In this document: one piece after another, positions 2,600 to 63,134 of the stretch
Layout: every line of letters begins with the position of its first letter
Numbering within the stretch: position 1 is the stretch's first letter
Notes under the pieces: model-generated
Database searches by the model: none
What the model was told of the DNA's origin: nothing
The model's input: only the letters and a program-made list of their open reading frames with translations
Virus record (IMG/VR): IMGVR_UViG_3300035181_001402
Location: 62,001-126,000 of that record
Reading direction: 5' to 3' (one strand)
Origin: a virus
DNA length: 64,000 bases
Position numbers and translations under genes: made by a program

Positions 2600-3861
2600 T
2601 CGCTCACCGAGTTCTCGCCAGGTTCCTGATCGCCGACAAGGTCATGGTCGACCTTGCTCTCATCGAGAAGCTCCGGAAGGACTTCTTGACGCTGGTCAAG
2701 AACATACCCCTGGTCAAAGACTACAAGACAGCGCATGAGCTGCGGGTAGCGATTCGGATCTACTCCAATCGGTTCGATGACATGTTCTTCAAGCACTTCC
2801 TTGGGGACGCCGTCAAGTACGACATTTCCAAGGCAACAGGACACGATGTCTCTTGGATCGACCACAAGACTCGTGCGGTCGCTTGGACATGGATGTCGGA
2901 GCTGAAGAGCATGCCCATCGGGTTTGCCAACGAGTATTACTCCGAGGAGAGCCGGTTCTTGGAGTTCGAGCGCAATGCCCCCAAGTGGAAGGCTCGCGTT
3001 CAAGCCAAAGCCCGAGTCTTCTGGACAGCGATGCGTGAAGTCTTCGAGATGCTCAAGACAAATGGGATGGCGCCCGAAATCCCTGTTGATGTCCCGAAGG
3101 ATGAGACGATCACCTTGGAAGGATTCCAGGTGATCATGCACGGGTTCAAGTCCGATCGAACCGACTTGTCCGATACGCATTGGAATGAGAAGGTTCTCTC
3201 GAAGCTGAAGCAGGGGCTCCAGGACTACAAGACCAAAGCCGCCAAGATTCTCCCCTGGTTGATCCAGAACCAGCTCCCGGTCATCCTGGACTTCGGGATG
3301 ACCCTCGATGAGGGGGGCCGCTACAACGGAGACGGCACCATCACTCTCTCGACGGCCTCCTTGATCTCAGAACGGCCCGAGTGGGCAACCCATGTGATGG
3401 CTCACGAGATGGGCCACCACCTGTTCAAGCACCTCGGCAAGGATGGGAGCGACTTCTGGTACGCCGTGATCAGCGGGGACCTGAAGGAACTCGACATCGC
3501 CGAGCTGTTGAGCAAGTGGCCCCCCAACGTCGGACATTTCACGCATTCGCTGATGAAGCACCTGGAGACATCGGACCCCGTTCTTGCGCTCCAGCTCGAT
3601 GCGCTGTCTCACGACCGTGCCTACCTGCACGACCGCTTCAACCGAGACGACTTCGAGAAGCTCCTCTCAGAGGGCACCAAGACCGTTCGAGTCCCCTCGA
3701 CACCCATCACAGCCTACGCCAACAAGAACCCCGAGGAGGCCTTCTGCGAGGCCATTGGGCTCATGGTCGCCTACGGTCCCGGCCGAGTGCCGGAGCAAGT
3801 CCGACACTGGCTCCACATCGCCATCCCTGGGAAGGTCAAGTTCGCTAGAACTCTTCCATGA
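2596..3861 (+). CDS. Zinc metallopeptidase (HEMGH type)
   Basis: The start ATGA overlaps the topoisomerase stop, so the two genes are translationally coupled. The 421-residue product opens with AHRVLARFL, a motif shared with its two upstream neighbours and the protein at 54154. The zinc site is HEMGHH at about residue 270, and a second acidic motif, EEAFCEAIG (about 379), probably gives the third ligand. The long helical N-terminal region is unrecognised. No signal peptide is seen, so it may act in the cytoplasm or be packaged. It overlaps the opposing dam gene by 17 bases at its 3' end. Confidence 0.8.
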   Translation: MIAHRVLARFLIADKVMVDLALIEKLRKDFLTLVKNIPLVKDYKTAHELRVAIRIYSNRFDDMFFKHFLGDAVKYDISKATGHDVSWIDHKTRAVAWTWMSELKSMPIGFANEYYSEESRFLEFERNAPKWKARVQAKARVFWTAMREVFEMLKTNGMAPEIPVDVPKDETITLEGFQVIMHGFKSDRTDLSDTHWNEKVLSKLKQGLQDYKTKAAKILPWLIQNQLPVILDFGMTLDEGGRYNGDGTITLSTASLISERPEWATHVMAHEMGHHLFKHLGKDGSDFWYAVISGDLKELDIAELLSKWPPNVGHFTHSLMKHLETSDPVLALQLDALSHDRAYLHDRFNRDDFEKLLSEGTKTVRVPSTPITAYANKNPEEAFCEAIGLMVAYGPGRVPEQVRHWLHIAIPGKVKFARTLP

Positions 3862-4777
3862 GGGCGTTCATGTAGGCGAAGGGGTCTTCTTGGTGCTCCG
3901 AGATGAAAGGGGTGAGTCCGTCCCGGCGACCCACCACGACCACTTCGCCCACAGCTTCGCGCTTCGCTCCGTCCGAGTTGATAGAGCGCCCCATCTTCAC
4001 CTCGTGAATTTCCCACCCCTCGTACAGCTCTCTCACAAGGGGCGTATCCGAGTTCGAGAGGACGACGGCCACCCCACGTTCTGCCAGCTCAGAGAAGCTC
4101 TTGGCGAGGGCTCTCTGTTCCGCTTCAGGGAAGCCCTCTGAAGTGTATCCCGTGAAGCTCGCGGTGTCAGAGACCGGCACGTAGGGGGGATCGAAGTAGA
4201 CGAGGTCCCCCGGCTGAGCCTGAGAGACCTCTTGCCACCACGGCTTGTGCTGAATGGTGAGTCCGTCCAGTGTCGAATCGACCCTCCGGAGGACCTCCGC
4301 ACAAGCCGAGATATTGGCCCCATCGCAAATCGAGGCGTTCTCTTCTTTCCCCCAGGGAGAGTTGAACTGCCCCTTCTTGTTGGTCCGGTACAAGCCGTTG
4401 AAGCAGGTCTTATTCAGGAAGATCATCCTGACAGCTCGGGTGACCGGCTCCAGAAGCGCCGGGTCCATCTGCCGCCAGGTCGTGAACGTTTCCTTGGGGG
4501 CGATGCGATACGCGGTTTGTACCGCAAGAAGGTCTCGAATCACCTCTTCACCGAAGCCGCCGACCATCAGGTATGCGTTGACCAGCTCGGCATTCAAGTC
4601 GGTCAGGACGGCCTTCTCGAACCTCTTCTCTTGAGCGAGCGCCCAGAAACTAGCGCCACCCCCAAGGAAGGGTTCGTAGTAGGTCCCGATCTTCTTGGGG
4701 TAGGTCTTGAGGAGGAAGGATAGAAGGGTGGTCTTGCCACCAACCCATTTGAGAAAGGGGCGCGCGGGGGAGGACAT
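3845..4777 (-). CDS. dam: Dam-type DNA adenine-N6 methyltransferase
   Basis: This 310-residue enzyme has the D12-class Dam layout: FLKWVGGKT at residues 8-16, YEPFLGGGA at 34-42 (SAM binding), and the catalytic DPPY at about 196 followed by FTGYTSEGF. It transfers methyl from SAM to adenine N6, probably in a short site such as GATC, and may protect the replicon from restriction or mark its replication state. Its C-terminus AYMNALMEEF is a member of the tail family found across this window. A GGTGTAGC box (4789-4796) lies 11 bases before the ATG, so it may have its own promoter. Confidence 0.93.
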   Translation of the reverse strand: MSSPARPFLKWVGGKTTLLSFLLKTYPKKIGTYYEPFLGGGASFWALAQEKRFEKAVLTDLNAELVNAYLMVGGFGEEVIRDLLAVQTAYRIAPKETFTTWRQMDPALLEPVTRAVRMIFLNKTCFNGLYRTNKKGQFNSPWGKEENASICDGANISACAEVLRRVDSTLDGLTIQHKPWWQEVSQAQPGDLVYFDPPYVPVSDTASFTGYTSEGFPEAEQRALAKSFSELAERGVAVVLSNSDTPLVRELYEGWEIHEVKMGRSINSDGAKREAVGEVVVVGRRDGLTPFISEHQEDPFAYMNALMEEF

Positions 4778-4798
4778 GCCCTCCCCCGGCTACACCGC

Positions 4799-5098
4799 CT
4801 ATCGTTCGTAGAAGCTGCTGGCGGAGGCCACACGCTTCGTGAGCTTGAGCCAGTAGCCACCATCCCTCATCCCTCTGGTCGCCCCCGCCCTTCTCGACGT
4901 GCCACCCGCCTTCGGTCTCGTATCCTCGACTTCAGCTCGTCGAGGATACGAGACGTGAACTGCTGATCGAAGCTGACGAGGATCGTTGACCCCGGCTGCC
5001 AATCCGTTTCGATCACCCGATCGATGTGTTCCTCCCCTGCTTGATGATTTGCGCGTCCACGACGCGGACGCGCTCTTCGATTTCGCTTGCTTTGATCA
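4799..5098 (-). pseudogene. Frame-broken small gene (three lesions)
   Basis: No single frame is open, yet protein-like sequence runs through all three. From ATG 5098 it reads MIKASEIEERVRVVDAQ, then EEHIDRVIETDWQPGSTI in a second frame, YETEGGWHVEKGGGDQRD in a third, and ends KLTKRVASASSFYER. Three changes restore one frame of about 97 residues: one more G in CAGGGGAGG, one fewer G in GAGGATACG, and removal of one copy of a 7-base tandem duplication (GAGGGAT twice). It lies in an operon with 5102-5443. A 16-bp inverted repeat sits at the second lesion. It is either a decaying gene or a badly sequenced one. Confidence 0.6.
4915..4954. repeat. 16-bp perfect inverted repeat inside a broken gene
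   Basis: The arms 4915-4930 and 4939-4954 are exact reverse complements (GTCTCGTATCCTCGAC and its complement), with an 8-base loop. The repeat lies in the frame-broken gene, at a point where the protein-like reading changes frame. Confidence 0.85.
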
Positions 5099-5101
5099 TG
5101 G

Positions 5102-5443: not shown

Positions 5444-5449
5444 GGATCT

Positions 5450-5477: not shown

Positions 5478-5484
5478 CCTGGAA

Positions 5485-6150
5485 TTACAGGTCGACCTCC
5501 CAAGAAAGGAGCGGCTCATCCACGGACCGCTCCCGGAGGACTCGGGCCACGGGTTCGTAGCTTCGCCTGTGGATCGAGCAAGGTCCGTGCGCCTGAAGAG
5601 CCCGCGTGTGTTGGTGGGCGTCGTCTCCGCCGTAGCCCTTGTGCTGCTCGAAGCCATACTCGGGGTAGAGCTTGCCCATCTCGATCATCATCTCGCTCTG
5701 AATGGTCTTGGCGATGATGCTGGCAGCGGAGACCGCCGGGATGAAGCTGTCCGCTTTGTGTATGCTCCGAGCCCCTTCAATCTTGAGGTTCCCATCCACG
5801 ATGGCCATGGTCGAGCCCGGGTGGCTCTCCTTCATGAGAGCCTGTGCCCATGCGACGTTGGCCGTGTGCATCTGGCAAAGACACACGTAGACCCCTTTCG
5901 CGTCGATCTCGACCGAGTCCGAGAAGCGCCAGAGCCAGTTGATGGAGGGGTCGGCCATCAGCTCGTCAAAAGCGAGCTTGCGCCTCTTCTCCGTGAGGTC
6001 TTTCGAGTCCCGAATCCGAGGCGAGCCACACCAACCCGCTGGGGCGATCACGACCGCAGCGACAAGAGGCCCAGCCCAGCTTCCGTAGCCAGCCTCATCA
6101 CAGCCGATGATGTGGAAGTCGCTCGAAGGATCGTAGGGAAGCTCGGGCAT
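5485..6150 (-). CDS. rnhB: Ribonuclease HII
   Basis: The 221-residue product matches RNase HII: GCDEAGYGSWAGP at residues 16-28 supplies the first catalytic Asp-Glu pair, IVDGNLKIEG supplies a further Asp, and KADSFIPAVSAASIIAKT is the conserved late Asp/Ser motif. It cleaves RNA in RNA-DNA hybrids and at single ribonucleotides, probably for primer removal or DNA repair in replication. A GGTGTAGG box (6158-6165) ends 7 bases before the ATG. The C-terminus extends slightly beyond the usual core. Confidence 0.92.
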   Translation of the reverse strand: MPELPYDPSSDFHIIGCDEAGYGSWAGPLVAAVVIAPAGWCGSPRIRDSKDLTEKRRKLAFDELMADPSINWLWRFSDSVEIDAKGVYVCLCQMHTANVAWAQALMKESHPGSTMAIVDGNLKIEGARSIHKADSFIPAVSAASIIAKTIQSEMMIEMGKLYPEYGFEQHKGYGGDDAHQHTRALQAHGPCSIHRRSYEPVARVLRERSVDEPLLSWEVDL

Positions 6151-6158: not shown

Positions 6159-6362
6159 CTACACCAGATATTCAATGATGAAGATGTCCCCGCCTTTGAT
6201 GTGCGTGACGATCTCGACGACCCGCACCAAGGTGGGCTTGTTCCCCGACCACGTCGCCTTGTCGTACACCTTGATCACGTCACCCACAACGGGGGTCGTC
6301 TTTGACGACGTGAAGAGAGTCTGCGCCTGCTCCGCCGCCTTGAATTTGAAACGGAGTCTCAC
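6159..6362 (-). CDS. Small protein, unrecognised
   Basis: GTG at 6362 overlaps the stop of the preceding gene (GTGA), giving 67 residues (start VRLRFKFKAAEQAQ, end DIFIIEYLV). The valine-rich centre with VGDVIKVYD looks like a small beta-barrel fold, but no family is recognised. It is the last gene of a three-gene minus-strand operon that begins at 7233. Confidence 0.65.
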   Translation of the reverse strand: MRLRFKFKAAEQAQTLFTSSKTTPVVGDVIKVYDKATWSGNKPTLVRVVEIVTHIKGGDIFIIEYLV

Positions 6363-6823
6363 AGCTCGTCCGTGTTGAGCTGGTCCCAGAAGGTCTTGGG
6401 GGGCTCCGGGGTGGACGGCGTCGTGTTCTTCCCCACCCATTGTTCGAGTTCGGCCCAGTCGGGTTCGGGCCCAGCCAGCGGGAAAGCGTAGGAGTCCCGC
6501 CCACCCTCCCCATTGCGGTAAGAGACGATCAGGGTGTCTGCTTGGGGGTCGATGATATAGATCCACCTGATATCGAAGTTGTATCTCTCACTGGTCATCA
6601 AGGGTTCAGATTCGTCTACCTCCCTCTTGCCAACGAAGGCTTCCCACCTCTTCGATTTGAGCAAGAGTTTGAGATGGGAGTCAAAACCCAGACCCGTTTT
6701 GCCGGCCTGTTGCACCCAATCCCACAACTCTTTCCCAAGACCTGTGGGGTACGAATCGCAGTGGTTGTAGACGCCTTGCCACTGGGAGTAATTGCCCACT
6801 GCCACGCAACCTCGGGTGCTCAT
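6359..6823 (-). CDS. Conserved unknown with C-terminal acidic tail
   Basis: The product has 154 residues from ATG 6823, which overlaps the upstream stop as TGATG; ATG 6832 is an alternative. It opens with RGCVAVGNYSQWQGVYNH and DSYPTGLGKELW, a signature I know from uncharacterised bacterial and phage proteins without an assigned activity. It ends PKTFWDQLNTDEL, the aromatic-hydrophobic-acidic tail shared by many proteins of this window. It is the middle gene of an operon. Confidence 0.72.
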   Translation of the reverse strand: MSTRGCVAVGNYSQWQGVYNHCDSYPTGLGKELWDWVQQAGKTGLGFDSHLKLLLKSKRWEAFVGKREVDESEPLMTSERYNFDIRWIYIIDPQADTLIVSYRNGEGGRDSYAFPLAGPEPDWAELEQWVGKNTTPSTPEPPKTFWDQLNTDEL

Positions 6824-14609: not shown

Positions 14610-15089
14610 ATGCCCACCCTGAGCATCCCTGCCATCTCGAATCCTGAGCTGGCAAAACGCGCGAAGACGATCCGTCCCGTCGGCAAGAGAGACGGCAAGC
14701 TCTACTACTACGACAGCAAGAGCGATCACCGCAACACATCGTTCTCGTGGACGACGCTGACTACCGAGGAAGCGATCGTCAAACCTCATGGTCTGACCCT
14801 TCGCACCCTGCACAGCTTCTCCTACGCCGGCTTCTTCAAGCCCAGCGTCGCGGAGGTCATCGCACAGATCCCCGAGGAAGTTCGCGATGAGGTCGTGGCT
14901 TTCCTCGTCGAGGGGCCCGATACGGTGGACGACATCAACCGCGAGAGAGAAGCCCGTGATGCCGGCTTCCATGTGGCGAAGACGACCCTCTACGTCGTGG
15001 GGAAGCCGAAGCCCCAGAAGCCCCTGCCTCCCCCGAAGCCCGAGTCGACGCCTTTCGGCAAGGCTCTCCTCGACGACGGAATCGGCTGA
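14610..15089 (+). CDS. Unknown with C-terminal LLDDGIG tail
   Basis: 159 residues. The body holds YYYDSKSDHRNTSFSW and HSFSYAGFFKPSVAEV, then a Lys/Pro linker (KPKPQKPLPPPKPES) and the tail TPFGKALLDDGIG. The tail, set off by a flexible linker, is nearly identical to the end of the unrelated protein at 22897-23370. This layout suggests the tail is a modular signal. Function unknown. Confidence 0.75.
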   Translation: MPTLSIPAISNPELAKRAKTIRPVGKRDGKLYYYDSKSDHRNTSFSWTTLTTEEAIVKPHGLTLRTLHSFSYAGFFKPSVAEVIAQIPEEVRDEVVAFLVEGPDTVDDINREREARDAGFHVAKTTLYVVGKPKPQKPLPPPKPESTPFGKALLDDGIG

Positions 15090-15427: not shown

Positions 15428-15429
15428 AC

Positions 15430-22896: not shown

Positions 22897-23370
22897 ATGG
22901 CCAAGAAGCTCTTTCATGATGACGACTGCGGGGAATTCCTGGATCAGACCGGAATGTGCCCGAAGTGCAGGTTCCACCCGGACATGCAAAGCACCTCCTT
23001 CAAAGAGGTGCCTGACGCCGACCACACGGCAGGAAGACACACCATGATCAGTATCAAAGGTTTGAACAAGGCTTCTGTTTTGGTGGCGCTGTGCAACGCC
23101 ACCCAACCCCTCGGTTTGGGGCGGCTTCAAGCTGGGATCTCTCCGAGTGAGGCCAATGCCTCCGAGAAGCTCGCCCAGTCGTCCAACATCGATTACTTCC
23201 TGGGGCGGCCCATCAAGGCCGATCTCAGCGGCGACGAGTTCGACGAGAGGCTCTTCGATCGTGATGCGGGCCCGGGGGCGGCCAAGAATGCCACCACCAA
23301 GCTGCGCGCTTCTCTCAAATCCGAGTCGACGCCTTTCAGCAAGGCTCTTCTCGACGACGATATCGGCTGA
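22897..23370 (+). CDS. Two-domain unknown with C-terminal LLDDD tail
   Basis: 157 residues. The N-terminal 49 form a zinc motif (CPKCRFHPDMQST). From about residue 50, MISIKGLNKASVLVALCN and IDYFLGRPIKADLSGDEF match a widespread uncharacterised family I have seen as a free-standing protein, so this is a fusion. The end SESTPFSKALLDDDIG nearly repeats that of the 14610 protein. GGTGTACC lies 7 bases before the ATG. Confidence 0.78.
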   Translation: MAKKLFHDDDCGEFLDQTGMCPKCRFHPDMQSTSFKEVPDADHTAGRHTMISIKGLNKASVLVALCNATQPLGLGRLQAGISPSEANASEKLAQSSNIDYFLGRPIKADLSGDEFDERLFDRDAGPGAAKNATTKLRASLKSESTPFSKALLDDDIG

Positions 23371-24708: not shown

Positions 24709-24920
24709 GCTACCGCGCGACCCGAAACTTCACGGTAAAGCATGGTCCTGGAAGAGACCAAGTATTCAGAGCAGGGGATATCATTTCTGATGACCTGTTC
24801 AGAGAACATCCTGCACTTCAAGGAGCTGTTCACCAGGGATGGTTGGTGGGAATCCCTGAAGTCCCTCGTGGAGTATATCCTACCTGGCAAGCCCATTTGC
24901 TCGCGGACGAGATCATCTGA
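24705..24920 (+). CDS. YRAT-type small protein 1 with tail
   Basis: GTG 24705 overlaps the previous stop (GTGA). The 71-residue product reads SYRATRNFTVKHGPG, DIISDDLFREHPALQG, HQGWLVGI and ends YPTWQAHLLADEII. It is the first of three tandem paralogues that share this order: YRAxxxF, acidic D-rich loop, short helix, TW tail. Confidence 0.78.
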   Translation: MSYRATRNFTVKHGPGRDQVFRAGDIISDDLFREHPALQGAVHQGWLVGIPEVPRGVYPTWQAHLLADEII

Positions 24921-24922: not shown

Positions 24923-25111
24923 ATGCCGTATAGGGCGACCCAAGAATTCTACTACTCGCTGATGCTCGGCGACATCACGGTCTACAAGGACGACATCGTG
25001 TCGGACTGGGAAGTGAAAGAGTACAATCTGGAGGACGCTATCAAGCAGGGTTGGCTTGTCTCATCCGAGCCCCCTACTTGGCAAGAGCGCTTGCTCGCGG
25101 ACGACCTATGA
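24923..25111 (+). CDS. YRAT-type small protein 2 with tail
   Basis: 62 residues: MPYRATQEFYYSLML, DDIVSDWEVKEYNLED, KQGWLVSSE and the end PTWQERLLADDL. Paralogous to both neighbours. Function unknown; a small beta-barrel domain with an attached tail is plausible. Confidence 0.78.
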   Translation: MPYRATQEFYYSLMLGDITVYKDDIVSDWEVKEYNLEDAIKQGWLVSSEPPTWQERLLADDL

Positions 25112-25305
25112 AATACCGTGCAATGAAGGACTTCTTTGGGGTAGGCAACTCCATCCTCTTCGCCAAGGGGGCGACCATCACCGAAGAGGACTTGGTGCGG
25201 CAGCCCTGGTTGCAGCGCTCTATCTTCTCGGGGACGATTGTCGAGGTGCCGGAGGAGGCATCGAAGCAAGCAACCTGGCACGATCACCTCATGGAAGACG
25301 ACTGA
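25108..25305 (+). CDS. YRAT-type small protein 3 with tail
   Basis: ATG 25108 overlaps the previous stop (ATGA). 65 residues: KYRAMKDFFGVGNSI, TITEEDLVRQPWLQRS and the end ATWHDHLMEDD. Third member of the tandem set. Confidence 0.78.
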   Translation: MKYRAMKDFFGVGNSILFAKGATITEEDLVRQPWLQRSIFSGTIVEVPEEASKQATWHDHLMEDD

Positions 25306-33612: not shown

Positions 33613-34526
33613 TGGACCTCATCACGATTATTCTGCCCCCCACGCGACCACGTCACGCCACCAATGCGTGGGAAGCGCTCATGGCGGATGACGATGGTAA
33701 CCTCGAGGGGGACACCGCAATCTTCACCTTCGACATGAAGGTTGCGGAAGGGGACCTCTGCGACATCTACCGAGGCACCTACAACGGCCGCCCTGCGGCC
33801 CTGAAGGTCTCTCATGGGGTCGACGTCAACGACCTCGTCGAGCACGAGGCGGACGTCATCCGGCACCTCTTCCCCGCAGAAGAGGCGAACGCTGGGTTCC
33901 TCCGCTACCTTTCCAAGCTCAGCTACTCCTTCCACAACGAACGGGAGGGGAAACGGATCAACGTCTTTCCCTGGCTTGGGGAGCACGTCTCCGTCGCGGA
34001 CATCCTGAAGGCCTACCCCGCGGGCATCGAGTACCAGAACATGGTCTGGATGTTCAAGCGCGGGCTGGAAGGCCTCGGGTACGTCCATGAGAAGAACGTC
34101 CTTCACGGAGCGGTCCTCCCTCCGCACTTGCTGATCCATCCGGCCGACCACGGGGCCAAGCTGATCGACTGGTCTTACGCCGTCACCAACGCGAACACAC
34201 GGCGGAACAAGGTTCGGGCCATGTCCGCCCCTTGGCGTAGCTTCTACGCTCCCGAGATTCTCGCCAAGGAGATCCCGACGGCGGCGACGGACATCTACAT
34301 GCTGGCCAAGTGCATGGTCGCCCTGCAAGGCGGGGACGTCACCACGAACGCGATGCCGGATACCACACCGGAGCCCATTCAGAGGTTCTTGAGGGAGTGC
34401 CTGTCTCCCATGCAACACCTCCGGCCGAACAACGCATGGGACCTCGTCGAGAAATTCAACGAGGTACTTCGACGAGTGATCGGCCCGCCGAAGTACTTCA
34501 AGTTCGAGATGCCCCCCAAGGTGTGA
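33612..34526 (+). CDS. Protein kinase-fold protein lacking catalytic residues
   Basis: 304 residues; ATG 33612 overlaps the purA stop. Kinase-like order is visible: RPAALKVSHG (Lys), then VLHGAVLPPHLL (about 163) where HRDLKPxN is expected, and LIDWSYAV (about 184) in place of DFG. The catalytic Asp, Lys and Asn of the loop are absent, so it is probably a pseudokinase or uses another chemistry. Near the N-terminus, NAWEALMADDDGN (residues 18-30) matches the common tail motif, here at the wrong end. No membrane segment. Confidence 0.72.
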   Translation: MDLITIILPPTRPRHATNAWEALMADDDGNLEGDTAIFTFDMKVAEGDLCDIYRGTYNGRPAALKVSHGVDVNDLVEHEADVIRHLFPAEEANAGFLRYLSKLSYSFHNEREGKRINVFPWLGEHVSVADILKAYPAGIEYQNMVWMFKRGLEGLGYVHEKNVLHGAVLPPHLLIHPADHGAKLIDWSYAVTNANTRRNKVRAMSAPWRSFYAPEILAKEIPTAATDIYMLAKCMVALQGGDVTTNAMPDTTPEPIQRFLRECLSPMQHLRPNNAWDLVEKFNEVLRRVIGPPKYFKFEMPPKV

Positions 34527-38676: not shown

Positions 38677-39185
38677 TCCGGATCAACTTCACATGTGATG
38701 TCGTCGAACTCGAACCTCTCGACGTTGATGAAGGGGACGAAGACCTCCTCATGCTCGTCGCCACGGCCACAACCCCCATCGGGGGGAATGACCATGTGCA
38801 GCATCAGTTCGCAGCAACGGGGGAATGGGACGACATTCCGATTGCAGCGGGAGCCCGCTCGACGGGGGGACTGGTCTATCGAGAGAGACAAGCCACTCAG
38901 CCGGGGAAGTATCAAATCCGCTCGGCGGTCCGCAATGGGAAAGAATCGCATCGGAATTTCGACCTATCCATCGAACACACGGGGGGCCGAAATCTCAAGC
39001 TCACGATCGAGCCTGGGAGCACCCCTGCGTTCTGGATCATGGGCAACTTCGATCCTGTCAAGACCGGCGCAGATCGTACGACCATCCACATCGAAAACGG
39101 CCAAGTCACGTCGATCGACACGGGGAAGCCGAACGATCAGCGTCGTCCGACGGCCTGGGAGAAGATGGACGACGACGACATCTAG
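38673..39185 (+). CDS. Unknown with C-terminal acidic tail
   Basis: 170 residues; ATG 38673 overlaps the previous stop (ATGA). The body is beta-rich (MIRINFTCDVVELEPL, TPAFWIMGNFDPVK). The end RRPTAWEKMDDDDI is a clear example of the common tail. Function unknown. Confidence 0.75.
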   Translation: MIRINFTCDVVELEPLDVDEGDEDLLMLVATATTPIGGNDHVQHQFAATGEWDDIPIAAGARSTGGLVYRERQATQPGKYQIRSAVRNGKESHRNFDLSIEHTGGRNLKLTIEPGSTPAFWIMGNFDPVKTGADRTTIHIENGQVTSIDTGKPNDQRRPTAWEKMDDDDI

Positions 39186-39206: not shown

Positions 39207-39812
39207 ATGCCCCATCAGCTAGACCCCCAAAGCGGCATGGGGATGAGCCCTCCGCGCTGCCTCATCTGCCGGGCCATCTTCAACCCCAACGAGCCGTACA
39301 CCTCGTGTGACCACATCTCGGTTGAGGACCTGTTCAAGAACCCCAAGGTTCAGACCATCTACGACATCGACATGGACGAGAAACCCGTGGGCATGGGTCT
39401 CTCGGGTGAGCGCTTCGACTTGAAGTGCCCCGACTGCGCGAAGACATTCATGCAGCTCCGAAAGTCCATGCACGGGCTCTTCTACGGGTGCCCTTCCTAC
39501 CCCGCGTGCAAGGGCACTCACGGGGCCAATGCAGACGGCGCTCCGAAAGGTATCCCTGGGGATCTCGCGACCCGTCAAGCCCGCACTGCGGTCCACCTGG
39601 TCTTCGACCGTATCTGGAACCAGCCCGGCTCCAATCTGAGCCGAATCCAGGCCTACACCTGGATGGCTGAGACCATGGGCATCCTCCCCACAGAGGCCCA
39701 CATCGCCCGATTCTCCATCGAGATGTGCGGAAAGCTTGCCATCTTGGTGCGAGAACACTTCGGGGTCACGAACGCGTGGGAAGCAATCCTCGACGACTCC
39801 ATTGGGGAGTGA
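39207..39812 (+). CDS. Topoisomerase-type zinc-finger protein with tail
   Basis: 201 residues. CLICRAIFNPNEPYTSC opens the protein; CPDCAKTFMQLRKSM with GLFYGCPSYPACKG forms a zf-C4 topoisomerase finger, followed by a helical domain (RTAVHLVFDRIWNQ). It probably binds single-stranded DNA or RNA. The end TNAWEAILDDSIGE is the common tail. CATATAAG just before the ATG is a possible -10. Confidence 0.82.
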   Translation: MPHQLDPQSGMGMSPPRCLICRAIFNPNEPYTSCDHISVEDLFKNPKVQTIYDIDMDEKPVGMGLSGERFDLKCPDCAKTFMQLRKSMHGLFYGCPSYPACKGTHGANADGAPKGIPGDLATRQARTAVHLVFDRIWNQPGSNLSRIQAYTWMAETMGILPTEAHIARFSIEMCGKLAILVREHFGVTNAWEAILDDSIGE

Positions 39813-39816: not shown

Positions 39817-40104
39817 ATGAAACGCTACCCTGAAGGATGGGTCCCCAAACAGCGTTTGCCGGGGGTTCAGTTGAGGATGAACCAGATAGCTATCACCCAC
39901 AGGATGAAGCTGTCTTGCCCTGTCTGCGAGCGTGGGCCCATGAGGCTTATCGACGGTCCCTACGGCCGCTTCTACGGCTGCAAGCACTGGCCGGACTGCG
40001 TGTCTCGGATTGCGGCCGAGTATGACGGAACGCCGAAGTACCAGAAAAAGAAGCTGCCCCCGAAGTCCTTTGAGGAACAGCTTCTCACGGACGACTTTGA
40101 CTAG
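39817..40104 (+). CDS. Small topoisomerase-type zinc finger with tail
   Basis: 95 residues with CPVCERGPMRLIDGPYG and RFYGCKHWPDC, a single zf-C4 topoisomerase finger, a Lys/Pro linker and the end SFEEQLLTDDFD. It is coupled to a larger finger protein of the same type. Its TAG stop overlaps the TAG of the opposing kinase gene in CTAG. Confidence 0.82.
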   Translation: MKRYPEGWVPKQRLPGVQLRMNQIAITHRMKLSCPVCERGPMRLIDGPYGRFYGCKHWPDCVSRIAAEYDGTPKYQKKKLPPKSFEEQLLTDDFD

Positions 40105-45517: not shown

Positions 45518-45550
45518 ACTGAGGATCTTCCTAAAAAAACCCTATACACG

Positions 45551-47028: not shown

Positions 47029-47856
47029 ATGGCCACCGTCATTGCTCAATGCAAGAGCTGTCATCAGATGATCTATTGGGAGGACCACATCGCGGGAGCT
47101 TGCTCCTGTCTTGAAGGCTCCTTGCGTCAGCTTCTCGCTCAGAAGCAACACGAACCGCGAGTCAAGCTACAACGACCAGCAACAATGGCCCGAACCGCGA
47201 GTCAAGCTGCGATCCGTCAACAGCTCCCCGACCTCACCCCCGAGATGCTCCTATCGAGCAGCGCCCTCCGAGAGATGAGGGCCGCCGAAGGCTACACGCA
47301 GCGCATGCCCGTTCCTCGGGCTCCCCGAGAGGACAGGAACGTCTTTCGGCGTGAGTATGCAGCCTCCTTCGACTCCGAAGATGAGCCCGCTGAGGACCCG
47401 GCGGCGTCCCTGGGGAGCCTGGAGGACATCTGGGGTGGGGCTGTGGCGAGGGATACCGGGCGGCGAGGAAGCCTCGACATCGATTTCTCGACCGGGGAGC
47501 TGGATTACGATCCCCCTGTGCAGCAAGCGAGGCCTTCGGGAATGGGGGCAGCCAGCCAGCCGCGCTTCAATGTCACGCGCCCCCCGACGGATCAGACCGC
47601 GTTCCGTCGAGAGCTGGTTGGGGCCAACATGCGAGAGATCGGACGAACCCGAAACGGGCAGGTCATCTTCTCGGATCGGAGCACCCGCTCGGTTGACGAA
47701 CCCGCGCCCCGTCCGAGCTTCATCGAGCACACCTCCAGGGCTGTGCCTGCCCCTCAAGCAAACGCCCGTACTGCGGCGATTCGAGCTGCGGAGCATGCGA
47801 AGCTCCCGACGGCGTTCGAGGTTCTACAGAGGCCCTTCCTCGAAGACGACGACTGA
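47029..47856 (+). CDS. Disordered zinc-site protein with tail
   Basis: 275 residues. The N-terminus has CKSCHQMIYWEDH and CSC, a zinc site. Most of the rest is Arg/Pro/Glu-rich and looks disordered. It ends KLPTAFEVLQRPFLEDDD, a longer variant of the common tail. A TTGCAG-N15-CGTAGG pair with 8 bases to the ATG may be its promoter. It could act as a scaffold. Confidence 0.72.
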   Translation: MATVIAQCKSCHQMIYWEDHIAGACSCLEGSLRQLLAQKQHEPRVKLQRPATMARTASQAAIRQQLPDLTPEMLLSSSALREMRAAEGYTQRMPVPRAPREDRNVFRREYAASFDSEDEPAEDPAASLGSLEDIWGGAVARDTGRRGSLDIDFSTGELDYDPPVQQARPSGMGAASQPRFNVTRPPTDQTAFRRELVGANMREIGRTRNGQVIFSDRSTRSVDEPAPRPSFIEHTSRAVPAPQANARTAAIRAAEHAKLPTAFEVLQRPFLEDDD

Positions 47857-49872: not shown

Positions 49873-50355
49873 ATGCCCAAGCTCGACAAGAAACTCCGCC
49901 TGGAAGTCGCACAGACTGTGCTCGATGGAGGATCCGTCCTCTTTCTCACTCCGAACTCAGAAATGACTGACCGGGTTGCAGACCTCTTCAGGAAGGCGTT
50001 CGTGGAGAACGCCATGGAGGTGAAGGGCTGCGCGGAACTCACCGCCCGCAAGCTCATGAAGCCGGAAGGCGCAAATCCGAGCTATGTCCAGCTCGCGAAG
50101 GGCCCCGGCCACGCCTTCTTCCACCCGAACCAGGACATGACCGCCGACGAAGAAATCGGGAATCCGACCTTCGTTTACTGGCCGACCGAGGGCGGGGACT
50201 ACCAGAAGGTGCCCTACAACACATGGAAGAGGGAGCGGCGGGCTCACCTCTGGCGGCCGGTTCACCTGAAGGGGCAGCTCCTCTGGGAGGACACGCCGGC
50301 TGTTGTCGCGGGCCCGTTGAATGCTTGGGCCAAGATCCTGGAGGATGACCTGTGA
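49873..50355 (+). CDS. Unknown with C-terminal acidic tail
   Basis: 160 residues. The N-terminal half (LEVAQTVLDGGSVLFLT) is alpha/beta; a central HPNQDMTADEEIGN loop follows. It ends GPLNAWAKILEDDL, a clear example of the common tail. First gene of a coupled three-gene operon. Confidence 0.75.
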   Translation: MPKLDKKLRLEVAQTVLDGGSVLFLTPNSEMTDRVADLFRKAFVENAMEVKGCAELTARKLMKPEGANPSYVQLAKGPGHAFFHPNQDMTADEEIGNPTFVYWPTEGGDYQKVPYNTWKRERRAHLWRPVHLKGQLLWEDTPAVVAGPLNAWAKILEDDL

Positions 50356-50594: not shown

Positions 50595-51016
50595 GCACGA
50601 CGGCTTGGGACCTGATCCTCAACGACTTCGATGAGATCGAAGAACGGATCACGGCGGCCTGCCTCGCCTGCAAAGCCCGCGGCATCATCGTCCAGTCCGG
50701 CGACTGGGGCGTCACCTATGACGAAGACTCCCACGTGTGGGTACAAGGCACACCATGGAGATCGAACCCAGGACTTCCTGTGAATCTCCTCGGCGCCTTG
50801 ATTCTCAACGAGAATCAAGGCGCCGAGACCTACATCTACGAAATGCGGGTTAGGTATGCTCCCACCGCCACGGTAAGCAGGCTCCTCGGCGTCGGGGTCG
50901 CCGGGACTATCTCATTCTTCGCGGGGTGCGATGCAGCTAGATTCCCTTCCGAGGGAACCCGGACTGCCTATGACCTCGGACAGCGGTTGGCAACAGAGAT
51001 TTCGCATCCTCTGTGA
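50591..51016 (+). CDS. Unknown with N-terminal AWDLILND motif
   Basis: ATG 50591 overlaps the previous stop (ATGA). 141 residues. It begins MSTTAWDLILNDFDEIEE, the tail motif placed at the N-terminus. An 18-bp perfect inverted repeat lies at 50789-50827 in the coding sequence. Function unknown. Confidence 0.65.
   Translation: MSTTAWDLILNDFDEIEERITAACLACKARGIIVQSGDWGVTYDEDSHVWVQGTPWRSNPGLPVNLLGALILNENQGAETYIYEMRVRYAPTATVSRLLGVGVAGTISFFAGCDAARFPSEGTRTAYDLGQRLATEISHPL
50789..50827. repeat. 18-bp perfect inverted repeat inside a gene
   Basis: CTCGGCGCCTTGATTCTC (50789-50806) and its exact complement (50810-50827) are separated by only AAC. It encodes LGALILNENQGAE. Such a tight perfect fold-back in coding sequence is unexpected. 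Confidence 0.9.
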
Positions 51017-52375: not shown

Positions 52376-52738
52376 TCAGAAGTCTTCGTCTTCTTTCATC
52401 AGACGCTCATGCCACGTCCGAACACTCGGCACCGAAGACGGCCCATAGTGCTTATAGTCGATGTGGCTCACGAATTTGCGAATGAGCTGGGGTTGCCCCA
52501 TCGCCCATCGAGCGGGATACAGAACATTGAGCCCTTGGACTTCATGGGTGTGAGGCCGGCTATACCCGTCTCGGAAGCAGACAGTCATTTCAGACTGAGC
52601 ACTGTTTGGGGGTGAATAGACATGCACCTCTTGAACATGCTCGTCGCTTCTCAAGACTGATTGAAAGTGACGGAAACGAGTGAACTCCTCGGAGTTCGAG
52701 GTGGGGAATCTCAGATCCCAAATAACCAGGTCAGGCAT
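52376..52738 (-). CDS. Unknown with C-terminal acidic tail
   Basis: 120 residues from ATG 52738 (MPDLVIWDLRFPTSNSE). The mid part (VHVYSPPNSAQSEMTVCF, GYSRPHTHEVQG) is beta-rich. It ends VRTWHERLMKEDEDF, the common tail. Coupled to the gene at 52740-53129. Confidence 0.72.
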   Translation of the reverse strand: MPDLVIWDLRFPTSNSEEFTRFRHFQSVLRSDEHVQEVHVYSPPNSAQSEMTVCFRDGYSRPHTHEVQGLNVLYPARWAMGQPQLIRKFVSHIDYKHYGPSSVPSVRTWHERLMKEDEDF

Positions 52739-52739: not shown

Positions 52740-53129
52740 TCAATCCTCCAGGATGGCATCCCAGGCCGTGGGATGCTTCAAAGGCGACCATTCCAAACAG
52801 AAGTCATCCCAAGACGAAATCCTGAATTGTTTCGAGTCGTCCCGGCGGTAAGACAGCCAGCCCTTTTTGATGGTCACGACGGAGACCATATTTCGGAAGT
52901 GTGTGGGATCCTTGTCCACGAACACCGCGTCATGGTGTACCCAATGAGGGACCAGCGTGCCCCCTTCTCTCGGTTTGAACGGGGCCCAGCCAAGCTCGAT
53001 CTTCTCGAATGAGGTGTCTACGGATTCGCCCACCGCCAGAAGCCAGATACCATCCGCAGAAAGAGCGACCACTTCAGCCCAGTAGGCGGGTCCTTCAAGC
53101 TCCAGCCAATCCCCAATTTCGTAGGCCAT
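52740..53129 (-). CDS. Unknown with C-terminal acidic tail
   Basis: 129 residues (MAYEIGDWLELEGPAYW..., end KHPTAWDAILED). The N-terminal part looks like a small barrel; the end is the common tail. GGTGTAAT lies 9 bases before the ATG, back to back with the divergent 53147 gene. Confidence 0.72.
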   Translation of the reverse strand: MAYEIGDWLELEGPAYWAEVVALSADGIWLLAVGESVDTSFEKIELGWAPFKPREGGTLVPHWVHHDAVFVDKDPTHFRNMVSVVTIKKGWLSYRRDDSKQFRISSWDDFCLEWSPLKHPTAWDAILED

Positions 53130-54153: not shown

Positions 54154-54474
54154 ATGAGCGCATGTATGTCTTCTCCGACCTCCGAACGCGTCCTCGCCCG
54201 ATTTCTCCAGGCCTCTGAAGCCATCCCCAAGGGGACGCAGTTCGAGGTTGTGATGAAGCACGGGGATTGGTGGTCCGAGATGCGCAAAGGCAGCATCTTG
54301 GTTGCTCAGGACGCTGGGACCTTCGGAGCCCCCTTGACCTTCAAGGAGCGAGGGGACAGCCACGGGAGCGGGTTCCCCATGACCCCGACGAAGGTCAAAG
54401 ACAAGATCCGCTTGGTGGGCAAGCCCTACGGCGGGAAGCCCCGCGACCTCACCGTCACCATGAAGACCCCCTAG
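54154..54474 (+). CDS. Unknown with N-terminal LARF motif
   Basis: 106 residues. MSACMSSPTSERVLARF resembles the SERILARF and AHRVLARF motifs of the topoisomerase and peptidase at the left end, 50 kb away. A beta-rich body follows (FEVVMKHGDWWSEMRKG, FPMTPTKVKDKIRLVG). TAG shared with the opposing gene in CTAG. Confidence 0.7.
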   Translation: MSACMSSPTSERVLARFLQASEAIPKGTQFEVVMKHGDWWSEMRKGSILVAQDAGTFGAPLTFKERGDSHGSGFPMTPTKVKDKIRLVGKPYGGKPRDLTVTMKTP

Positions 54475-54731
54475 AAGTCTTCGTCGAGCCTCTCCCACCA
54501 CGTTGGGTACGTGGGCTCAGGCCCAAGCGAGGGATCCCGAGCAGGATACCTACAGGTTGGGAGCTGCATTGAACCTATCTCAAATGGGAAGTAGGTTCTT
54601 TGCCATTTCGAACAGCGCTTGCAGATATAAACACCCGACAAGTGTCCAATTAGATTTGGGCGCGAATCTATGTGCTTCGTTCTGGTAGGATCCGACTCAA
54701 ATAGGTGACCGGCGTTATACGTCGTCGCCAT
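54471..54731 (-). CDS. Zinc-site protein with acidic tail
   Basis: 86 residues (MATTYNAGHLFESDPTR). CKRCSKWQRTYF with a later Cys forms part of a zinc site. It ends TYPTWWERLDEDF, the common tail. AT-richer than its surroundings. It overlaps the preceding gene by 17 bases. Confidence 0.72.
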   Translation of the reverse strand: MATTYNAGHLFESDPTRTKHIDSRPNLIGHLSGVYICKRCSKWQRTYFPFEIGSMQLPTCRYPARDPSLGPEPTYPTWWERLDEDF

Positions 54732-55107
54732 CGAGATGCTCCCAGACCGTAGGGTTTGAAGCGTTCTCGGCCAATCGTTTTGCCTGCTCGCGGTCTCGCT
54801 CTGACAGCACTTCGCCAAGCAGGCTGTTCAGAGTGTGGGTGTCCCGCAGTTCTCGTGCTTGGGCGCGATGATCGACCACCTCTGCGCGGGCTACATCCCT
54901 CTGTCGAATGACCTTCCGAAGAATCTCGACTGACGTTTCATCGGAGTCATCGGCATATCCCGAGAGAATGCTCCGAAGCTGTGCGAGAACACGCTGGTCC
55001 TCCGTCTCTTGTCGCCGCTCGCGAACGAGGGTAATGAGCTTCGGGGCCCCGAATGCTATCGAGATGAAAAGCACTGCAAGGCTAAGGAAGGCAATGAAAG
55101 AGATCAT
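54715..55107 (-). CDS. Membrane-anchored helical protein with tail
   Basis: 130 residues: an N-terminal membrane segment (MISFIAFLSLAVLFISIAF), a long coiled coil, and the end SNPTVWEHLDGDDV. The anchor and exposed tail on one protein suggest the tail faces the cytoplasm. Start ATG overlaps the upstream stop (ATGA). Confidence 0.75.
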   Translation of the reverse strand: MISFIAFLSLAVLFISIAFGAPKLITLVRERRQETEDQRVLAQLRSILSGYADDSDETSVEILRKVIRQRDVARAEVVDHRAQARELRDTHTLNSLLGEVLSERDREQAKRLAENASNPTVWEHLDGDDV

Positions 55108-59871: not shown

Positions 59872-59872
59872 C

Positions 59873-60360: not shown

Positions 60361-60902
60361 TGGCGCGATGGGATCACGCTGACGAGGAGTTCTATGGTGA
60401 AGGGTCTGACGTCGAAGGGGACATCCGCCTCAACCTCGCCATGGTCGAGATGATTCGGACCGATCTCGGAGACAAGAAAGCAGCTTGGGCTCAAACCAGG
60501 CTGAATATCCCCGAGCTGGACTACTCCATGTGCTTCCGGACTGGGATGTGGCTGCGCTACGCCCAAGACCCCGTCACTCAAGTACGCCTGGAAATTCTCG
60601 ACGTCCGCTCAACAACCTGTCTCGTTTACTGCGTCGGATGGGATGAACCGTCGGAAAAAACGAAGGACACTCTCTGCCGATACAGAGTGTCTGAGCCCCC
60701 CACAGAACCACTGCCCTCCTGGGTGAAGCCCGGGGCTTGCTTTATCGATGATAATGCGAGATGGTGCATAAGAACACTTCGAGGAGGGATGTTTACTGCG
60801 ATGTCCGGTGAGTACTTCAATTACTGGACTGCTGAAGAACTTGCCCGTGGGGATGTGCGGCCCATCTTCACGGCGTGGGAACAGCTCGACGACTTGAAAT
60901 AA
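60360..60902 (+). CDS. Unknown with C-terminal acidic tail
   Basis: 180 residues; ATG 60360 overlaps the previous stop (TGATG). An acidic N-terminus (HADEEFYGEGSDVEGD) precedes a beta-rich body (VRLEILDVRSTTCLVYC). It ends PIFTAWEQLDDLK, a variant of the common tail. AT-richer in its second half. Confidence 0.7.
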   Translation: MARWDHADEEFYGEGSDVEGDIRLNLAMVEMIRTDLGDKKAAWAQTRLNIPELDYSMCFRTGMWLRYAQDPVTQVRLEILDVRSTTCLVYCVGWDEPSEKTKDTLCRYRVSEPPTEPLPSWVKPGACFIDDNARWCIRTLRGGMFTAMSGEYFNYWTAEELARGDVRPIFTAWEQLDDLK

Positions 60903-60904
60903 CA

Positions 60905-61213: not shown

Positions 61214-61222
61214 TCGCTCGGG

Positions 61223-61795
61223 ATGCTGACGAAGAAGATCCTGACGGCGACGAAGCACTACCTGAGCAAGACCCCTGAAGAGAACCGCGCCTATGGCTTG
61301 GTGACGGACGGGAAGATCAACCCTGGCACCTTCCGCTTCATGCCGGTGCTGGCGTGGATTCGCAAGAAGCCCGAGAGGACAATCCTGCTCCTCTCGGGCT
61401 TCTTGCTGCGCATGACGGAGGGTGCGTTCGTGGGCGGCCTCGACTGGTCCATCCCGTTGAACCAGGAGACCGAGGACGAAGCCGCGAACCTTCTCTCGGC
61501 CTTCGGCTGGGACAATCGAGTGTGGCCTTCAGACCCGGGCTGGCCCGACCTTCTGCCGGATGAGGAACACACGCTTCACGGGATGCTCAAGAAGAAGGGC
61601 ATCCTGGAGACGCTCACGTTCCCGCCGAAGGAATCGGGCAACAAGGTGATGACGGTTCATGTGCTGAAGGTGTCGAACCCCTTCCCGCTGCCGATCCTGG
61701 TTGCCGACGAAGACCGCCAAGAGGTGACCCCCGAGATGCGGGCGAAGCTCCGCGAGCTGGTCGCCGACCCGAGCTGCTTCGCGCTGTCCTCCTAG
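61223..61795 (+). CDS. Unknown protein
   Basis: 190 residues (MLTKKILTATKHYLSKT..., VLAWIRKKPERTILLLSG). Mixed helix and strand, no family recognised. GGTGTAGT lies 8 bases before the ATG. TAG shared with the opposing gene in CTAG. Confidence 0.7.
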   Translation: MLTKKILTATKHYLSKTPEENRAYGLVTDGKINPGTFRFMPVLAWIRKKPERTILLLSGFLLRMTEGAFVGGLDWSIPLNQETEDEAANLLSAFGWDNRVWPSDPGWPDLLPDEEHTLHGMLKKKGILETLTFPPKESGNKVMTVHVLKVSNPFPLPILVADEDRQEVTPEMRAKLRELVADPSCFALSS

Positions 61796-62381
61796 TCGTC
61801 GGCGAGAATATGCCCCCAAGCGTTGTCGGGTTTACCTTTGGGCCCTCTCGTCCGAAGCAACCTGACAATGGGGAGGTCGGCCGCCGCAACCAGGGAATCA
61901 TACAGCCCCCTGGTTGCGATGGAGCATTGGTCGATGTGGTGTACAGGGTCGGAGATATCCCGCACCGTGATGAGCCACACGCCCTTCTTCTTCTGAATGT
62001 AGACCCCTGCCCGCCAGGTGCTCATAGCCTTCGTGATGGGGTCCTGGACTCCCGTGGCGACCTCGAAGGGCTCCGGCACCCGAGCCATAGGGTTCTCAGT
62101 CTCACGGTAGAGATGTCTCCCGAAGGGCCGGCGCGTATACTCCGTGCTGATCTGGTTCAAAGGGATTTGAGTCTCATAGCAGACGGTCTCCCCCGCGAAA
62201 GAACGCCTCCAGGCACGAGGGACACGATCTCTCTCCGGGTGATCATGTCTCCGGGGAACCTCCCGGGTCGCCATGTCACAAGGCCCGCGACCTGGGAGGT
62301 ATTCAGCGATCGGATGACCACATGGCCGGGGCACATGTCCCCCAAAATCAGGACCGGCTTCTGCATCATGTCGAGGATCAT
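61792..62381 (-). CDS. Unknown with C-terminal NAWGHILADD tail, frame broken at a G run
   Basis: ATG 62381 lies 8 bases after a GGTGTAGA box. It reads MILDMMQKPVLILGDMC to REIVSLVPGGVLSRG, then the protein-like frame changes to GETVCYETQIPLNQIS and continues to PKGKPDNAWGHILADD. One more G in the CGGGGGAG run near 62192 joins the parts into about 195 residues. Probably a sequencing error, because the tail is a normal member of the common set. Confidence 0.65.
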
Positions 62382-62387
62382 CTTGGG

Positions 62388-62411
62388 GATCTACACCGCG
62401 GTGTACTCTAG
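62388..62411. promoter_or_regulatory. Back-to-back GGTGTA promoters forming a palindrome
   Basis: TACACCGCGGTGTA (62392-62405) is a 14-base perfect palindrome made of two divergent CGGTGTA boxes. It drives the minus gene at 62381 and the plus gene at 62415. Confidence 0.65.
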
Positions 62412-62414
62412 GGC

Positions 62415-63134
62415 ATGGGATCGACCCCCAAAAAGACCCCCGTGAAGTACCCCTCATGGTGGACCGAGAAAGCCGCACCACATCGAAACATGTTGATGGT
62501 GCGGTACGATTACGGACACTCCAAGGAGGACAGGTCTCTGTACGGATGTCTGGTCGTGGGGGACAACCAGAAGCTCCTCTGGCTCAGCAACGAGCAGATC
62601 CGAGAGGAATGGAAGCCCTTCCGCGCGCCCTACTCCGCAGTCATCCCTCTGGGGGTATGGCCGTCGTGGGTGACTCGACGAGATGTCCAATGGCACACTG
62701 CGCCGGACCATCCTCGGCGAATGACCATCGTCTCGTACAAGAACAAGAGCTTCTGGCTCGCAACCACCACAGTGGTCGAGCCCTTCGAGGGACCGCGATT
62801 CCAAGTCTACCGGGCAACGCAGAGCTTCAAGGTCGACCTTGAGGTCATTCAATCCGGAGACCAGCTCACCCTCGATAGGGATTACAACGTGTGGTACGTG
62901 CGTAAGAAGAGCATCGCACGTTATTGCAACAGGGAGATCACAGCCTTCCTTGGCATGCAGTACCTCACCCCCGTGATTCAACCGAACGGACACCCCTTCG
63001 ATTGGAGCATTCAGAGGTACACTACACGCTTCTGGAGTCTCCATACTTTCGCTCTCAATCACCGGCCTCTGATGCCCTCAAAACCGACATCTTGGGACGT
63101 TGTGATGGCCGACGAATTCGAGGAAATGGTGTAG
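62415..63134 (+). CDS. YRAT-type protein with tail
   Basis: 239 residues. A middle part has FQVYRATQSFKVDLEVIQ, like the three small YRAT proteins at 24.7-25.3 kb, and the end KPTSWDVVMADEFEEMV is the common tail. The N-terminal half, with WLSNEQIREEWKPFRAP, is unrecognised. GGTGTACT lies 7 bases before the ATG. Confidence 0.72.
   Translation: MGSTPKKTPVKYPSWWTEKAAPHRNMLMVRYDYGHSKEDRSLYGCLVVGDNQKLLWLSNEQIREEWKPFRAPYSAVIPLGVWPSWVTRRDVQWHTAPDHPRRMTIVSYKNKSFWLATTTVVEPFEGPRFQVYRATQSFKVDLEVIQSGDQLTLDRDYNVWYVRKKSIARYCNREITAFLGMQYLTPVIQPNGHPFDWSIQRYTTRFWSLHTFALNHRPLMPSKPTSWDVVMADEFEEMV

Follow-up and report, generated by a model that had tools for sequence, protein, structure and literature searches.

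Why should many unrelated proteins of one virus end in the same kind of short peptide? The question is raised by a stretch of 64,000 nucleotides (the window), corresponding to bases 62001-126000 of the 128,096-base virus record IMGVR_UViG_3300035181_001402 (G000 in this work), for which an initial annotation had described a common C-terminal tail. From the sequence comparisons presented here, we consider this tail a real and strongly enriched linear docking motif that changes slowly and has a dialect of its own in each phage.

The DNA polymerase of G000 is 100% identical to one encoded by a 350-kb IMG/VR record (G001) and 94% identical to that of G002, a record of 275 kb; therefore, the window is, judging from this identity, part of a jumbo phage. 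Relatives of the major capsid protein are encoded by at least 518 stretches of the same clade (518 of 600 among the pattern matches listed), and in the 80 contigs that were kept (L187-L266) this protein is 90-100% identical. Other records mentioned below are G003 (437 kb), G005 (252 kb) and two fragments of 255 kb (G012) and 149 kb (G026). LR745208 has a capsid protein 83% identical, its DNA polymerase match being only 34.7% identical, and Tunturiibacter phage Tunturi_5, the nearest cultured relative that we met, with a host from the Acidobacteriota, has one 48% identical; the parts examined were 444,893 of 485,034 bases and 300,000 of 308,711 bases, respectively.

The Tail Is Enriched beyond Chance

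Each of the 16 peptides quoted in the initial annotation coincides exactly with the C-terminus of an open frame of the window; the positions attached to them were right as gene edges, but several were approximate (Table 1). The figure of about 23 tailed proteins was slightly high for the window, where a re-trained profile recovered 20 frame ends scoring at least 8 bits and 18 were kept as credible, that is, 15 of the 16 quoted ones plus three additional ones, and the same phage has further tailed proteins outside it. The two matches that were dropped lie at 5832-5861 (-) and 8671-8712 (+), each in a short frame (41 and 32 codons, respectively) overlapping a called gene. The end of the Dam methyltransferase (phrog_56), AYMNALMEEF, is a real end of an open reading frame (ORF), but its membership is doubtful, as it scored 10.5 bits with a first profile that had been trained on it and less than 8 bits with the second.

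A profile scan against shuffled sequences bore out the enrichment at C-termini. The first profile was made from the 16 quoted tails, 275 G001 proteins with no homolog in G000 were held out, and the last 20 residues of each protein were shuffled 200 times with their composition preserved, which makes a composition artefact unlikely. Seven of the 275 held-out proteins scored at least 10 bits (shuffles: mean 0.35, maximum 3) and six at least 12 bits (mean 0.05, maximum 1), and 3163 internal blocks of the same proteins gave two and none, respectively. This profile also detected tails in 21 of 573 G003 proteins (shuffles: mean 0.63, maximum 3) and in 13 of 350 from G005 (mean 0.55, maximum 3), mostly on proteins different from those of the window, and in Tunturi_5 there was no excess (1/320, and 0/320 at 12 bits with the re-trained profile). 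The second profile was re-trained on 66 tails of G001, G003 and G005, so that its counts in these three are not independent; the independent counts are those of the held-out part of G001 and those of G003 and G005 with the first profile. At 12 bits, it found tails in 9 of 465 proteins of G018, which is outside the training set (shuffles: mean 0.12, maximum 2), in 3 of 554 of G008 (mean 0.17, maximum 2) and in none of 312 of G017, where the count was also zero at 9 bits; LR745208, with 1/566, showed no excess. Among 72 viral loci from outside the clade, 2 of 1981 proteins reached 10 bits. Tailed proteins numbered 80 of the 1828 proteins of four records. An initial DNA pattern for the tails was discarded for counting as too narrow (4/26 records, none of them G000). 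That the tailed proteins are unrelated was also upheld: with their tails removed, 35 distinct G000/G001 proteins gave one similar pair (G001 13717 and 14009, over 46 residues).

Constraint and Dialects Point to One Receptor per Phage

The 35 tailed queries from G000 and G001 were compared with G002, in which 18 had a match; four of these were set aside (two non-orthologs, G001 13717 and G000 86564, the capsid protein itself, and a 59-residue frame without the tail), leaving 14 ortholog pairs. In these pairs, the tail core had 12 differences in 140 residues and no gaps. The linker, taken as the 25 residues that precede the tail, had 85 in 324 and a further 26 gapped positions (Fisher 1e-5), and the remainder of the protein had 218 in 1159 (Fisher 0.002). 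Two points temper the conclusion that the tails change slowly. The pairs were kept only where G002 scored at least 6 bits, and, although amino-acid-changing codon differences were fewer relative to silent ones in the tails (12:16) than in the linkers (85:55, p 0.10) and in the rest (218:224, p 0.56), neither contrast was significant.

The relatives have dialects of their own, such as PTAWERLLxDD, KSVWEHLLED and PTILDRILxDD. They were compared in a scan in which the key position (0) was left unscored and the stricter threshold was used, the lower one being noisy. Under these conditions G008 gave 6 matches in 554 proteins (shuffle mean 0.35), all six with Leu at the key position, compared to Trp in 43 of the 67 matches of G001, G003, G005 and G018 (Fisher 0.0035 vs G008). 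Position +2 is His in 6 of 7 matches of G018 and Arg in 27 of 31 of G003. The switch can be followed in place in one family, which ends in NAYTHLL (G001), TAFDRIM (G003), NAFSRLL (G005) and TTLDRLM (G008). In G017, a few ends resembling TRLERVxxE, one of them on the homolog of a W-tailed G005 protein, did not amount to a significant excess. These concerted differences point to one receptor per phage, which is the strongest inference of this work: because the dialect differs phage by phage (from W to L in G008), a single receptor would be co-evolving with all the tails and would give rise to the dialects. The proposal that the tails are a docking signal read by one hub is, in consequence of the constraint and the dialects, well supported, and we hold it very probable that the tail is a docking motif with one receptor.

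A Short Motif That Is Not Confined to the End

The commonest residues of the 66 training tails give the consensus P-T-A-W-[ED]-R-[LI]-L-[ED]-D. The tail would be a short docking motif made of Thr, Ser or Asn, a key aromatic residue (W, replaced by L in one relative), an acidic and a basic residue, two aliphatic residues and further acidic ones. Thr, Ser or Asn at position -2 from the key residue is paired with Asp or Glu at +1 in 64 of 80 tails, a helix-capping-box pattern that suggests a capped helix, and the spacing of the motif varies by one residue (e.g., TWQERLL). The preceding Pro/Lys linker noticed at the outset was confirmed by comparison with the equivalent place in untailed proteins (Pro, 10.9% vs 5.5%; Lys+Arg, 17.1% vs 12.4%) and is presumably flexible. 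Within the 16-residue search window, the core is followed by 2 to 11 further residues. The stretch behind the key residue has a mean net charge of -2.7 (80 tails), and the last residue of the 80 is D in 17, E in 14, G in 12 and A in one, so that an acidic residue closes 31 of them.

The motif is found mostly, but not exclusively, at C-termini. In four phages, 75 C-terminal matches of at least 12 bits stand against 26 elsewhere (block shuffles for the latter: mean 6.1, maximum 14), and 15 of the non-C-terminal matches score at least 15 bits (block shuffles: mean 1.1, maximum 5). In the window, one copy occurs near the N-terminus of a 141-residue protein and another inside a protein-kinase-like protein (Pkinase PF00069, E 5e-8), whose orthologs carry the motif at residue 45 in G003 and at residue 191 in G005; no motif was seen in the relative of this protein in LR745208. 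Matches of 11.0-12.8 bits in genes 5485-6150, 26106-26822 and 26822-28219 are near chance level and were not counted. The gene immediately before the kinase-like one, 32269-33612 (+), encodes an adenylosuccinate synthetase with a 2-aminooxy adenylosuccinate synthetase as its best PHROG; it might be a PurZ or a PurA and, in the former case, the phage would possibly be a Z-genome phage. Phosphorylation of the tail Thr, considered since the kinase-like protein bears the motif, was set aside, as 4 of 66 tails have Asn there instead, and as no homolog of the kinase was detected at E 1e-4 in G018 and G008, two phages that bear tails.

The N-terminal copy and the one inside the kinase-like protein make the motif look like a tethering peptide and not like a degron read from the end. 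The least probable of the explanations weighed here is that the tail is a degron, or else a signal for the packaging of proteins into the virion. The phage does have a ClpX, and T4-like phages package internal proteins through targeting sequences; the signals of T4 are N-terminal and cut by the head protease, and the C-terminal majority reported above is unlike them. Degradation through a classical C-terminal degron, one of the options initially raised, is disfavoured by the acidic ends, by their variable distance from the core and by the N-terminal and internal copies. The recognition of ssrA rests, according to PMC7652416, on Ala-Ala with a free carboxylate; of the 80 tails, a single one ends in Ala. 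A tethering peptide may, nonetheless, deliver its bearer directly for degradation.

A resemblance to the C-terminal tip of the single-stranded DNA-binding protein (SSB) had also been pointed out, and the likeness holds in that both are acidic-hydrophobic docking peptides. The phage has its own SSB, a conserved protein of 296 residues that had been a candidate for the hub until Foldseek revealed it as gp32-type (predicted local distance difference test score, pLDDT, of the model 75.5; the best PDB matches were four of RB69/T4 gp32, E 3e-5 to 5e-4). Its end, [DE][FW]xx[LIM][LI]xxV in five of six clade phages and EEFKEFIDTV in G018, with a similar one in LR745208, differs from the tails and ignores the dialects. 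Docking to the replisome, in the manner of the SSB tip or of a sliding-clamp peptide, would be favoured by the similar hydrophobic spacing of the gp32-like end (e.g., DFTDLLDQV) and by several proteins near the LR745208 polymerase that end in SILDLF or SVLDMF, but the tip keeps F in G008, where the tails have L, it has the acid before the core and not after it, and it is present in LR745208, where tails are not in excess; moreover, the polymerase, the DnaB-like helicase and the RecA of the phage have no tail. An end in PF after an acidic run, as in the SSB tip, is missing from all 18 window tails, G000 has no PF00436 match, and no core of the QLxLF type, the beta-clamp pentapeptide, appears in the counts of 66 tails. 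We consider replisome docking improbable and, because the SSB tip stays aromatic in G008, the tails and this tip are probably read differently. In LR745208, the proteins encoded near the DNA polymerase (L041, 264999-309891) end in SILDLF, SVLDMFA or SILGMFGATND, which we take to resemble sliding-clamp peptides.

The Carriers of the Tail

Which proteins carry the tail? Among G001 proteins, 20 of the 26 tailed ones (at least 9 bits) lack a homolog in five clade phages, compared to 182 of 414 untailed ones, which indicates that the carriers are mostly accessory proteins; the 100-250 kb core of G001, with 135 genes, encodes no tailed protein. The length of the tailed proteins is ordinary (median 142 vs 147), a few tailed families are conserved, one being present in five records, and the AlphaFold model of the most conserved one had a pLDDT of 44. 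In the flanks of the capsid gene in the 80 contigs, 5 of 982 proteins matched, three of them from one family whose end is not tail-like and two (L216) with tail-like ends. A PHROGs search of 20 proteins, 19 of them tailed or candidates, yielded almost no named function, and the recognisable clients are few: a zinc-ribbon/DUF3268 protein, a viperin-like protein, the kinase-like protein and an RlaP-type nucleotidyltransferase (the called frame of the latter ends in TVWEQL, and its G005 ortholog ends otherwise). Four tailed accessory proteins, one of them weakly, contain stretches of 37-66 residues like the major capsid protein of the phage itself. They could be bait or decoy proteins; such stretches are found in untailed proteins too (e.g., G005 222382 and Tunturi_5 122430).

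Accessory genes that are rapidly replaced fit a takeover of the host, and the receptor might thus be a host protein (for instance RNA polymerase, or a ribosomal or Clp component), with the dialects following the identity of the host. A concerted W-to-L difference is, in contrast, easier to obtain with a fast-evolving phage receptor, and Tunturi_5, which has an acidobacterial host, shows no tails, although this is a weak argument; we regard a host receptor as rather unlikely.

ClpX as a Candidate Receptor

The phage encodes a ClpX with a complete N-terminal zinc-binding domain (ZBD), in which zf-C4_ClpX, AAA_2 and ClpB_D2-small were recognised; a GroEL gene is found in the same phage species. 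ClpX orthologs are present in all five records (G000, G001, G002, G003 and G005) and, among 23 further ones, 11 have a ClpX 53-61% identical, three one 47-49% identical and nine none (LR745208, Tunturi_5 and seven fragments of 133-233 kb, including G026). LR745208 and Tunturi_5, both ClpX-less, show no tail excess either. The ZBD of the clade has a mean net charge of +2.2 (n=11, range -2 to +5), compared to -2.9 in 69 other viral ClpX proteins, the rest of the protein being similar in charge (-4.6 vs -6.3); 80 bacterial ClpX proteins, picked by a biased pattern, average -0.5. Nine of the 11 clade members have a Lys or Arg between the third and fourth Cys, a feature absent from the 69 viral and the 80 bacterial proteins. 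The [LMV]GF loop for ClpP docking and the pore-1 loop are kept in 11 of 11, and no ClpP was found in 10 records; therefore, host ClpP would be needed.

Relatives of ClpX read C-terminal adaptor peptides through the ZBD (PMC8138137, PMC3983244, PMC12373786); the C-terminal tail of SspB docks there (PMC8138137), and the XB peptide works in other positions too (PMC12373786). The phage motif is comparable to the SspB XB in that it is short, follows a linker and occurs in other positions too, and in that the phage encodes a ClpX with a ZBD. It is unlike it in being acidic, with a W..LL core, and in standing on many proteins instead of on one adaptor; its docking to ClpX is here a supposition. The XB tail of E. 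coli is basic (LRVVK), so that the negatively charged tails do not resemble it in sequence; acidic tails on a basic ZBD would mirror E. coli and its basic XB. Engineered CLIPPERs (bait-linker-XB; PMC12373786) have the same anatomy of binding part, linker and anchor, whereas the phage set would be natural and encoded by a virus. ClpX genes of some jumbo phages had already been reported, with suggested roles as translocase or in virion assembly, and the accessible text of PMC7824862 mentions no shared client tail; this clade differs in its unusually basic ZBD.

ClpX is one of 41 G001 families with members in four or all of the five clade phages and with none in the examined parts of Tunturi_5 and LR745208; to our knowledge, it is the one with relatives that read C-terminal peptides of adaptors. 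The remaining 40 share its presence pattern, and the receptor could be another hub encoded by the phage, that is, a scaffold or compartment protein collecting early effectors and enzymes, for which the tail, as an amphipathic helix with a linker, would act like encapsulation or targeting peptides. The absence of tails from the G001 core and the enzymes among the recognisable clients (kinase-like, viperin-like and RlaP-type) agree with such a hub. In ten proteins scanned, mostly clade-conserved, there was no Pfam match pointing to a shell or scaffold, although no dedicated shell search was made. We see this hub as doubtful, and yet as nearly as likely as ClpX. Peroxisomal PTS1, encapsulin and microcompartment cargo peptides are cases in which many unrelated proteins share one short end peptide and one receptor; the phage tails are like them in this respect and unlike them in their phage-specific dialects; their receptor, like any compartment, is putative.

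Besides the shared presence pattern, a number of observations count against ClpX as the receptor. The tails of G018 are clearly acidic, but its ZBD has a net charge of -2 and an Asp at the diagnostic site; the ZBD of L112 (G010) has -1, and one W tail was seen there. Two W tails lie close to the capsid gene of G026 (L216), in whose 149-kb fragment no ClpX was found. Conversely, ClpX is present in both G012 and G017, but the 227 genes called in the G012 fragment yielded no recognisable tail and G017 gave 0/312 at 9 bits. The changes in the clade ClpX may be one ancestral event, which would make the charge test phylogenetically non-independent. The loss of the RKH loop (kept in 0 of 11 clade members vs 48 of 72 other viral proteins) was rejected as a mark of the clade, as RKH occurs in only 20 of the 80 bacterial proteins, a control biased by the search pattern. 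A covariation predicted beforehand, in which W tails would go with Phe at Cys4+8, was borne out by no more than two F-type tails of G011, and G010 spoke against it. Finally, clients that include kinase-like and viperin-like proteins would fit a scaffold as well.

With these points in mind, the full proposal, namely a docking motif, one receptor, and the ClpX of the phage as this receptor, is put forward tentatively. ClpX would be the most likely single candidate and would read the tails through its ZBD, and the tailed proteins would be a replaceable set of adaptors and effectors anchored to the viral ClpX, which would itself work with host ClpP.

Table 1. Tails and other features of the window, and related genes in other contigs. 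Scores are from the re-trained profile.
Feature	Gene or protein	Coordinates	Strand	Bits	Remarks
AYMNALMEEF	Dam methyltransferase, 3845-4777	3845..3877	-		doubtful tail
PPKTFWDQLNTDEL	ORF finishing at 6359	6359..6397	-	16.9	true end of TFWDQLNTDEL, 6359
ESTPFGKALLDDGIG	14610-15089	15045..15089	+	10.0	kept in G002
ESTPFSKALLDDDIG	22897-23370	23326..23370	+	9.7	G002 match a 59-residue frame without tail
PTWQAHLLADEII (= ..YPTWQAHLLADEII)		24879..24920	+	12.4	additional
PPTWQERLLADDL	24923-25111	25073..25111	+	17.0	kept in G002
ATWHDHLMEDD	25108-25305	25270..25305	+	17.6	additional; G002 ortholog only 40% identical, yet tail kept
RRPTAWEKMDDDDI	38751-39185	39147..39185	+	23.3	kept in G002
VTNAWEAILDDSIGE	zinc-ribbon/DUF3268 protein (Pfam), 39207-39812	39768..39812	+	18.9	kept in G002 and in G005 (49.6% identical, RTAWDILMDDDTS)
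PPKSFEEQLLTDDFD	39817-40104	40060..40104	+	8.3	
PTAFEVLQRPFLEDDD (= ..LPTAFEVLQRPFLEDDD)	47185-47856	47806..47856	+	11.7	additional; kept in G002
LNAWAKILEDDL	49873-50355	50317..50355	+	18.0	kept in G002
VRTWHERLMKEDEDF		52376..52420	-	16.2	
HPTAWDAILED		52740..52772	-	26.6	
YPTWWERLDEDF		54471..54506	-	26.6	true end of TWWERLDEDF, 54471
NPTVWEHLDGDDV		54715..54753	-	21.5	G002 ortholog 48% identical, tail identical
FTAWEQLDDLK		60867..60902	+	16.7	true end of TAWEQLDDLK, 60902; kept in G002
DNAWGHILADD		61792..61827	-	14.5	true end of NAWGHILADD, 61792; kept in G002
KPTSWDVVMADEFEEMV	62496-63134	63084..63134	+	15.8	kept in G002
KPTAWERLLEDDL					tail-type peptide
Internal copy HATNAWEALMADDDG	kinase-like, 33612-34526	33660..33689	+	17.4	at residue 20
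N-terminal copy MSTTAWDLILNDFDE	50591-51016	50597..50626	+	16.6	same in G002
Tail KTAFERLLEEDD	viperin-like protein, G003	L070:17038-18243	+		
Capsid-like stretch	tailed accessory protein	L005:2172-2744	-		
Capsid-like stretch	tailed accessory protein	L023:16066-16563	-		
Capsid-like stretch	tailed accessory protein	L072:11116-12093	-		
Capsid-like stretch	tailed accessory protein	L090:16104-16808	-		
Candidate receptor	phage ClpX	L003:3245-4495	+		
Chaperonin	phage GroEL	L021:297-2015	-		
SSB	gp32-type SSB	L020:6809-7699			
Alike ends AAWTAYRKAVGCPV / AAWNAFRKALGYPV	adjoining genes	15092-15427, 15424-15777	+		perhaps a duplication
Other gene	RNA-ligase-like protein	45185-46594	+		
End rich in Ser/Asp/Gly, SGSSDTSSSDSSSSSDSSGGGSDW		55634-56860	-		

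Implications for the Phage

A more elaborate version of the proposal, which we consider unlikely, is a plug-in platform for targeted degradation, composed of a viral ClpX with a re-specified ZBD, host ClpP and, in each record, about 6 to 40 baits or effectors that are interchangeable and all attached through the common docking peptide, some of the baits being pieces of the major capsid protein. Such pieces could hook capsid-sensing defences or the capsids of rivals, and the dialects would stop the adaptors of co-infecting phages from using each other's ClpX. In the open-access literature, searched through one library and, hence, weak as evidence of absence, we met with no phage described as sharing one linear motif among several per cent of its proteins.

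The tail gives a handle on dozens of uncharacterised accessory proteins, which probably act through its receptor, and the dialects make this receptor findable by co-evolution. If the receptor is ClpX, viruses would encode natural bait-linker-anchor proteins like the degraders that have recently been engineered.

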